In this document: positions 41,303-42,743 of the stretch, in pieces
Layout of the letters: every line of letters starts with the position of its first letter
Numbering within the stretch: the stretch's first letter is position 1
Assembly (NCBI RefSeq): GCF_015277775.1
Contig: NZ_CP063849.1
Location: forward strand, 4,712,001 to 4,776,000
Reading direction: 5' to 3'
Length of the DNA: 64,000 nt
Origin: Paludibaculum fermentans
GTDB taxonomy: Bacteria > Acidobacteriota > Terriglobia > Bryobacterales > Bryobacteraceae
Notes under the pieces: generated by a model
Seen by the model: the letters and a program-made list of their open reading frames with translations, nothing else
Told to the model about the DNA's origin: nothing
The model's database searches: none
Made by a program: the position numbers and the translations under genes

Positions 41303-41755
41303 ATGGGCATCACGCTCGAAACCGAGGCCTTCGTCGCCTTGCAGCGCGCGGCGAACGGCCTGATGGAAGACATAACCAGGTTACTGAAGGGCTACGGCCT
41401 CTCCCCTGCGCAATTCAATGCCCTGCGCATCTTGCGCGGCGCGCGGCCCGCCTCCCTTACCTGTGGCGAGGTGGGCGACCGTCTCATCACGCGCGGTCCG
41501 GATGTAACAAGATTGCTCGAACGCATGGAGAAGGGCGGCCTGGTGTCACGCGTCCGGGGCACGGAGGACCGCCGGGTGGTGCGCGTCACGATCAGCGAAC
41601 GCGGCCTGGACCTGCTGGCTCAACTCGATGAACCGGTGACAGAACTGCACCGGAAACAGTTTTCCGCCTTGCGGGAGCGGCGTACGGCCAGTCTGGTGAA
41701 ACTCGCGAGCGCGCTACTTGCATCCCGGACCGCCCCGGATGCTTCTAAGATGTAG
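41303..41755 (+). CDS. MarR family transcriptional regulator
   Basis: Protein of 150 residues. Winged helix with GLSPAQFNALRILRGARPAS, CGEVGDRLITRGPDVTRLLE (recognition helix) and the wing RGTEDRRVVRVTISERGLDL. It lies between the serine hydrolase (12 bp) and the DedA-rhodanese gene (55 bp), all on one strand. Ligand unknown. Confidence 0.92.
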   Translation: MGITLETEAFVALQRAANGLMEDITRLLKGYGLSPAQFNALRILRGARPASLTCGEVGDRLITRGPDVTRLLERMEKGGLVSRVRGTEDRRVVRVTISERGLDLLAQLDEPVTELHRKQFSALRERRTASLVKLASALLASRTAPDASKM

Positions 41756-41810: not shown

Positions 41811-42743
41811 ATGCATGGGGTTTGGGAATTCGTTCTACACCACGGGTACGGCCTGATGTTTGCCGCCGTGTTTGTGGAACAACTGGGCGCGCCGGTACCG
41901 GCCGTGCCGGTGCTGCTGGCGATGGGCGCCATGGCGGGACTGGGCTACTACTCCGTCTCGCTGTCCCTGTTGCTGGCCATCATTGCCGCCATGGCTCCGG
42001 ACGTCCTGTGGTACTACCTGGGCCGCCGCCGGGGCGATTCGATCCTGGCCCTGCTCTGCAAGCTGTCGCTGGAGCCGGACACCTGTGTCCGGACGACGAC
42101 CAACGCGTTCGACCGCTGGGGCCCGGCCACCCTGCTGGTCGCCAAATTTATTCCCGGACTCAGCACCGTGGCGCCGCCCCTGGCCGGCAGCGCGCGGCTT
42201 CCCATGGGACGTTTTCTGGCCTTCGATGCCGGCGGAGCCTTCCTTTGGGCGGGCTCCTCGCTGGCGGTCGGCTTCCTGCTGCGCCGCAAGGTGGAAGAGT
42301 TTGCCGAGGCGCTCTCCAGCTTTGGCATTGGACTGCTGGTGGTCGTAGGGTCGCCCCTGGCGGCCTGGATCTTCTGGAAACTGTGGCAGCGCGAGCGCGC
42401 CATGCGGCTCTACCGCATCGCGCGCCTGCAGCCCACCGACCTGAAGGCCATGCTGGATTCCGGAGAGCCCACGTATATCATCGACTTGCGCGGGCCCAAT
42501 GCCATCAAGCGGTCGGGCTTTAAGCTGCCTGGCGCCTTGATGCTGCCGCAGGACGAGATCGACGTTCACCTGCGCGACTTGCCCGCCGGAGCGCACCTGG
42601 TCTTCTATTGCAGTTGACCGAACGAAGCATCCAGCGCCGGTCTGGCGCTACGGCTCCAAAAGATGGGTTTCGCGAACGTCCGGCCGCTGCAGGGCGGCTA
42701 TGACGAGTGGGTCGCTCAGGGCTATCCTGTTGATAGCCTGTGA
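41811..42743 (+). CDS. DedA membrane protein fused to a rhodanese domain; predicted selenoprotein (TGA at 42615 read as Sec269)
   Basis: DedA/SNARE-associated domain in residues ~1-190 (FVEQLGAPVPAVPVLLAMGA, LGRRRGDSILALLCK, KFIPGLSTVAPPLAGSARLP), then a rhodanese domain from ~205 (MLDSGEPTYIIDLRGPNAIK). A conventional reading stops at TGA 42615-42617 in the middle of the rhodanese loop, VFYCS-stop. The same frame continues for 41 more codons with exactly the missing part: PNEASSAGLALRLQKMGFAN, then VRPLQGGYDEWVAQGYPVDS. Homologous DedA-rhodanese proteins, as I recall them, have Cys-Pro-Asn-Glu-Ala here, so the TGA takes the place of a cysteine. A hairpin with loop GGTCT follows (listed separately). 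Full product 310 residues with a C-S-U loop. Alternative: a nonsense mutation or base-call error. Confidence 0.75.
42615..42649 (+). promoter_or_regulatory. UGA codon plus candidate bacterial SECIS hairpin
   Basis: In-frame TGA (42615-42617), 15 nt of spacer, then a perfect 6-bp stem AGCGCC/GGCGCT (42633-42638 with 42644-42649) closed by the 5-nt loop GGTCT (42639-42643), 21 nt after the TGA. The apical GGUCU is the same as in the E. coli fdhF element recognised by SelB (from memory), at a nearly equal distance and in the same codon phase (GGU CUG). The sequence simultaneously encodes the conserved rhodanese residues SAGLAL. Confidence 0.7.

Follow-up and report, generated by a model that had tools for sequence, protein, structure and literature searches.

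What question does a TGA codon raise when it breaks the frame of a membrane protein gene, and is followed by 41 further codons of the same domain? The gene in question lies in the window, i.e. the whole stretch of 64,000 nucleotides that was analysed (G000:C1:4712001-4776000), in a genome of 9.53 Mb on two contigs. Its frame opens with the ATG at 41811 and the first in-frame stop is the TGA at 42615-42617 (codon 269). A plain table-11 ORF ends there with 268 residues and misses another 42 (Sec and 41 more), as the TGA is the sole interruption of the frame 41811-42743. The preliminary description had placed this single TGA in the active-site loop of the rhodanese domain and had counted 41 residues between it and a second TGA; the reading of the frame agrees on both points, and Pfam agrees on the first. 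We propose that the gene very probably encodes a 310-residue membrane selenoprotein with selenocysteine (Sec) at UGA 269. The Sec decoding draws its support from comparison with relatives, while the function is one that we infer. The gene and its main parts are the following:

41811..42743, + strand: DedA(VTT)–rhodanese gene, probably for a selenoprotein of 310 residues with Sec at 269 (frame reading and Pfam)
41895..42266, + strand: VTT/DedA membrane domain, residues 29-152 (Pfam PF09335, 38.4 bits, cut-off 33.9)
42432..42716, + strand: rhodanese domain, residues 208-302, with the TGA read through (Pfam PF00581, 51.3 bits)
42615..42617, + strand: TGA codon, read here as selenocysteine U269 (same TGA in family and phylum homologues)
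42741..42743, + strand: terminal TGA stop (frame reading)

Pfam places the N-terminal VTT domain and the C-terminal rhodanese domain in a single chain, which is the architecture of DedA–rhodanese fusions. With the TGA read through, the Rhodanese match of the window protein is one continuous domain across it. AlphaFold2 on the window protein and one 93% relative gave a mean pLDDT of 42.6, which is too low for use.

The codon-269 column was followed in 200 genomes of the same family (Bryobacteraceae), the window's own included, all of which give some match to the window protein at E 0.001. At least 73 of the 200, counting the window's own, contain the fusion with TGA at this column, and among the matches listed another 54 family fusion loci have a sense codon in its place, for Cys in 47 and for Ser in seven. 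A phylum sample of 396 genomes gave a match at 1e-25 in 71, and 29 loci fetched from other families of the phylum comprise 22 with TGA and seven with Cys. Family and phylum together provide 154 full-length fusions: 92 with TGA, 54 with Cys, seven with Ser and one with Gly. The in-frame TGA is thus aligned with the Cys of homologues, as is characteristic of selenoproteins, and Cys, which had been claimed for this column, is found in most non-TGA homologues (54/62). A sequencing error at the TGA is ruled out because the other 72 family loci share it. With the trait column masked, a quick tree was built from 153 rows (92 Sec, 54 Cys, 7 Ser). On it the Sec label must change at least 13 times, and starred branches force five of these changes; since this tree is unrooted, the changes count gain and loss of Sec without distinguishing them.

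Some loci stand outside these numbers. A scan for related loci gave two, L047 (the 93% relative) and L048, a distant rhodanese that was unused; L047 and L148, near-copies of L018, are outside the tallies. L099 (Gly) and the fragment L111 misfit the loop pattern and are outside the family counts of 73 TGA and 54 sense codons, and the 153-row tree was built without L099 and the fragments L109, L111, L146 and L147. In L099, Gly at the Sec column is accompanied by Leu replacing C92. The window genome encodes a second DedA–rhodanese fusion (L072, G000:C1:2917720-2918637), 45% identical and with Cys at the Sec column, which together with the window gene forms a natural Sec/Cys pair within one cell. 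The distant fusions L112, L120, L135, L141, L142 and L144 (30-36% identical) have TGA members among Cys relatives and a non-Pro residue after Sec. At a further fusion homologue (G447:C5:1917548-1918432) the match reads through one TAG.

The region behind the TGA evolves as coding sequence. Among nine same-genus genes (36 pairs), the 41 codons that follow the TGA show 295/273/670 differences at codon positions 1/2/3, as compared with 461/317/730 in the 40 codons before it, and median dN/dS was 0.27 after the TGA (35 usable pairs) versus 0.34 before it (36 pairs). The claim that rhodanese coding is kept after the TGA is sustained by both measures.

The codons that follow the TGA also carry a candidate for the signal that would direct Sec insertion:

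42633..42649, + strand: SECIS-like hairpin, 6 bp stem, loop GGTCT (synonymous-codon null and third-position entropy)

The hairpin (AGCGCC-GGTCT-GGCGCT) is separated from the TGA by a spacer of 15 nt, its first paired base being the 16th, which is where it had been described. Its loop GGTCT would correspond to the apical sequence of the E. coli fdhF SECIS. Folded alone and compared with its shuffles, the window hairpin is not unusual in stability (z = -0.35), and therefore the evidence for it is comparative. Six pairs in the same register, with G-U allowed, are found in 66 of the 73 family TGA loci. All six are Watson–Crick pairs in 63 of the 73, whereas 1000 rounds of synonymous-codon resampling gave 2.2 such loci on average and never more than seven. 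Six pairs also occur in 4/54 non-TGA family loci, all four among the 24 with a following Pro, and the Cys relatives, too, exceed their own null (3.9 vs 3.1 pairs). The stem is nearly invariant; the loops of the TGA loci, such as CGTGC, CGTGT, GGTCT and CGGGT, have G as their second base in 73/73. The 22 phylum TGA loci have six Watson–Crick pairs in 12 cases, five in three, and three or four in seven, and the seven with three or four pairs in this register share the peptide SAARVAR.

The four stem codons have a third-position entropy of 0.00-0.46 in the 92 Sec genes versus 1.35-1.78 in 30 Cys genes, and most codons outside stem and loop are free of such a contrast between Sec and Cys genes. 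Codon 2 after the TGA, outside the stem, has an entropy of 0.35 in Sec versus 1.35 in Cys genes, and codon 11 shows the opposite contrast (1.49 in Sec versus 0.56 in Cys genes). Judged by these comparisons of sequence, the TGA genes keep the hairpin far beyond what the amino acids require and the Cys genes do so much less. Conservation of the hairpin among TGA relatives is supported by both the synonymous-codon null and the entropy; it is through these comparative tests, the single-sequence fold not being significant, that a SECIS hairpin as known from bacterial selenoproteins is recognised here.

The window genome encodes the machinery that such a gene needs. It contains tRNA-Sec (68.8 bits; anticodon TCA according to ARAGORN), selB (358 bits, cut-off 242), selA (490 bits, cut-off 268) and selD (353 bits, cut-off 125). 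All four genes on which bacterial selenoprotein synthesis is judged, and which the preliminary description had proposed to look for, are therefore present. The selD gene (L181, G000:C1:9301580-9302485) carries its own in-frame TGA and probably encodes a selenoprotein itself. In the family, selB was above the cut-off in 167/200 genomes, which leaves 33 without it, or 34 when judged by E-value. Searches for tRNA-Sec covered the window genome and 40 others, namely the selB-less genomes and six more; 22 of these 40 had a match of 63-80 bits and 30 were above the Rfam gathering score of 47. Beside its 68.8-bit tRNA-Sec, the window genome shows another match, of 47.4 bits. Since matches of 47-50 bits also occur in genomes with a clear tRNA-Sec, matches of 50 bits or less were taken as other tRNAs, and the line of 60 bits for tRNA-Sec is our own choice.

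In seven of the 73 TGA genomes no selB match reaches the cut-off. Each of the seven contains a tRNA-Sec (63-77 bits), and we therefore read the absence of selB as incompleteness of these assemblies. Among the matches listed, the TGA form occurs in 73/182 genomes with selB or a tRNA-Sec of at least 60 bits versus 0/18 without both (Fisher p = 2e-4, a test that ignores kinship between genomes). Eight of these 18, counted as being without tRNA-Sec, have a match of 47-50 bits, just above the Rfam gathering score. With that score in place of 60 bits the TGA form occurs, among the matches listed, in 0/10 (p = 0.015, kinship being ignored here as well).

Two other readings of the TGA have to be weighed against Sec. 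It could be a real stop; the product would then be a DedA protein whose rhodanese tail is truncated, and the remainder would be decaying. The table-11 ORF does end at residue 268, but the conserved coding after the TGA, the same TGA in at least 73 family loci, and the alternation of Sec and Cys on the tree, with its 13 or more label changes and five starred branches, speak against decay, and we reject this reading as hardly credible. The UGA could also specify a residue other than Sec, or be passed by general read-through. Here, the residues that take its place in the 62 non-TGA fusions are Cys (54), Ser (7) and Gly (1), never Trp, and unspecific reading fits poorly with a genome that has the full Sec machinery, a fusion gene that itself ends at TGA and a hairpin that accompanies the TGA form; on these grounds this reading is rejected as extremely improbable, too. 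Sec at position 269 remains the reading that we adopt. UGA 269 would be decoded by the SelA, SelB, SelD and tRNA-Sec that this genome encodes, under the direction of the hairpin 15 nt downstream.

Sec has a Cys close by in the rhodanese loop:

42609..42611, + strand: C267, at the column of the canonical catalytic rhodanese Cys (alignment with YC of 6mxv and 3tp9)

In the solved rhodaneses 6mxv and 3tp9, which have loops two residues shorter, YC is aligned with C267, and we therefore take C267 as the canonical catalytic Cys. It is kept in 92/92 Sec rows, 54/54 Cys rows and 4/7 Ser rows. Residues 266-269 (YCSU) form a C-x-U motif in the rhodanese loop. The C-S-U loop that had been claimed for the active site thus holds as a C-x-U pair in the loop, but Sec lies two residues past the catalytic C267.

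The DedA half has features of its own that distinguish the fusions from DedA-only paralogues:

42057..42059, + strand: C83, first Cys of the DedA-half pair (Cys in 154/154 full-length fusions, in 0/13 DedA-only matches)
42084..42086, + strand: C92, second Cys of the DedA-half pair (Cys in 151/154 fusions, in 0/13 DedA-only matches)
42162..42164, + strand: S118, at the column of an Arg in DedA-only paralogues (never Arg in 154 fusions, Arg in 13/13 DedA-only matches)

The 13 DedA-only matches are same-family paralogues in which the match covers the DedA half only; they are a chosen subset of the listed matches and were defined by match extent. Residue 118 is N, S, G, D or A in the 154 fusions, and residue 112 is Lys or Arg in 153/153 fusions and in 13/13 DedA-only matches. 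By spacing, in a mapping of our own, residues 112 and 118 correspond to Arg130 and Arg136 of YghB, which are described as essential and likely phosphate-binding in the available text of PMC10127716. Under this mapping, the first column of the basic pair of UndP flippases is basic in 153/153 fusions and the second is never Arg in 154. The PGD motif is present in 12/13 DedA-only matches and its acid is Asp in only 9/154 fusions. Of 23 records with a query coverage of at least 80%, three Pseudomonadota plasmid fusions were fetched; inspected by eye, all three show the two DedA-half Cys and a CxC loop. Because the fusions have C83 and C92 where the 13 DedA-only matches lack them, Arg is missing at 118 and the columns map to YghB as described, we think that the fused DedA proteins may form a separate functional group.

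Ser occupies the Sec column in seven fusions (L107, L118, L122, L123, L126, L131 and L134). In three of them Ser replaces the catalytic Cys as well; C83 is retained in 7/7 and C92 in 6/7. Their rhodanese tails may be inactive and attached to a DedA half that still works.

One neighbouring gene of the fusion gene may be relevant for its expression:

41303..41755, + strand: MarR-family regulator gene, 55 bp upstream of the fusion gene (Pfam, ORF)

This MarR gene is a possible local regulator of the fusion gene. In 15/158 homologue loci (L020, L152 and 13 others), the fusion gene is immediately preceded on its own strand by a gene, and BLAST shows these genes to be related to one another; in eight loci the overlap is 4 bp. 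Two of these 15 genes were scanned and both are pirin. Fourteen of the 15 loci with this pirin-type gene have Sec forms and one has a Cys form; upstream of the pirin-type gene, six of the 15 also have a gene that resembles the window's MarR. At the window locus there is no pirin between marR and the fusion gene, and the relatives of that pirin in the window genome are all weak (32-33% identical). Within flanks of about 1.5-2 kb, some of which are cut by contig ends, the 158 loci showed no larger cluster of recurring neighbours.

From these features a mechanism can be proposed. The positive-inside rule applies to membrane topology, and the basic stretch after the last hydrophobic segment would place the rhodanese domain in the cytoplasm. 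C267 would take up sulfane sulfur as a persulfide, or meet an oxidised or electrophilic substrate, and U269 would then resolve the C267 persulfide by forming a C267-S-Se-U269 bond. Thioredoxin, or else the C83/C92 pair of the DedA half, could then reduce this bond. The DedA half itself would be a membrane anchor or a redox-coupled transporter, in which one basic residue that is a candidate for UndP binding is missing. The gene may be regulated by MarR, and the MarR gene upstream together with pirin in some relatives suggests induction by phenolic or electrophile stress. Overall, as far as sequence can tell, the protein likely serves as a sulfane-sulfur/redox relay bound to the membrane, and not as an ordinary undecaprenyl-phosphate flippase. 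The redox-relay part of this explanation is itself tentative and we would rate it somewhat below an even chance. More doubtful again is its fullest form, in which the fused DedA proteins would be a distinct non-flippase subfamily with a four-centre thiol/selenol relay, the C-x8-C pair exchanging electrons or sulfane sulfur (or selenium) with C-x-U/C-x-C and coupling sulfur/selenium redox to membrane transport.

Two further functions deserve consideration. The protein could be a Sec-containing UndP flippase like ordinary DedA proteins, in which the rhodanese would serve as a redox switch that controls flipping. The VTT domain is present above its cut-off, residue 112 is Lys or Arg in all 153 fusion rows, and COG0586 DedA proteins are proposed UndP flippases with rhodanese fusions in that subfamily (PMC10127716, available text). 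Still, this is unlikely, as the column mapped by spacing to YghB Arg136 is never Arg in the 154 fusions but is Arg in 13/13 DedA-only matches, and the acid of the PGD motif, which 12/13 DedA-only matches have, is Asp in only nine of the 154. Slightly less likely still is a role in selenium handling, in which selenite is taken up or reduced Se is delivered by the rhodanese and Sec acts as a sensor of Se supply. Ledgham in 2005 reportedly tied a DedA protein to selenite resistance or uptake in Ralstonia/Cupriavidus metallidurans. A review sentence links DedA to selenite in this organism (PMC11422209, available text) and the Ledgham 2005 work is cited in the available texts of PMC6321198 and PMC8659212. 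The Sec and Cys copies in the one window genome would also fit. On the other hand, some genomes that lack both selB and tRNA-Sec (e.g., G104, G163) have Cys forms, so the core function would be independent of Sec, and no sel gene was recognised on viewing the 25 listed neighbour clusters. Both functions are kept as rivals of the sulfane-sulfur/redox relay.

Both halves of the proposed protein have precedents, since C-x-U rhodanese selenoproteins and DedA–rhodanese fusions are each known already. The best NCBIfam match of the window protein is NF041203 (rhodanese_LYCAU, form 3), named rhodanese-related (seleno)protein, which shares the C-x-U motif in the rhodanese loop; the match scores 84.4 bits, below the curated cut-off of 115, and the model has 126 positions, whereas the rhodanese of the window protein makes up the last third of a membrane protein of the DedA family. 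A rhodanese-like selenoprotein form 3 with motif CxU is given in Table 1 of an inventory of 119 bacterial selenoprotein families and subfamilies (PMC13188914, 2026), in the available text of which the word DedA is absent. The same inventory contains TsoB (NF045694), a rhodanese/DsbD fusion-like selenoprotein and thus likewise a rhodanese fusion, but set apart by its description: it has a UxxxxU motif, two Sec and a DsbD-like partner instead of DedA.

Fusions of DedA with the thiosulfate sulfurtransferase GlpE, e.g. PA1209 of P. aeruginosa, have the architecture of the window protein. Such DedA–rhodanese fusions are reported in PMC12893004 and PMC10127716, and the available texts of both mention no selenocysteine member; the link between rhodanese and UndP in them is called unclear in PMC10127716. 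The three fetched Pseudomonadota plasmid fusions share the C-x8-C pair, but unlike the window protein they have Cys at the Sec column. YgaP, an inner-membrane rhodanese with solved structures, was matched at E 0.0003-0.001 and is distant in sequence. It is not known to have a DedA half or a C-x-U.

In the literature searched, which excluded supplements and NCBI protein annotations, no Sec-containing DedA fusion was found, nor any paper that brings selenoprotein, rhodanese and DedA together; the available text of deep-Sep (PMC12013277) has neither rhodanese nor DedA. The earlier claim of an undescribed combination must be narrowed accordingly: C-x-U rhodanese selenoproteins are already catalogued (NF041203), and it is their fusion to DedA that was not found described. 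The same search found in print neither the spread of this union of Sec and DedA fusion nor its Cys pair.

The fusion would add a DedA-fusion selenoprotein architecture that is missing from the available text of the 119-family inventory (PMC13188914), and one that occurs in at least 73/200 sampled genomes of a single acidobacterial family. It would also give the link between DedA and rhodanese a concrete, testable chemistry, with a C-x8-C pair facing a C-x-U pair.
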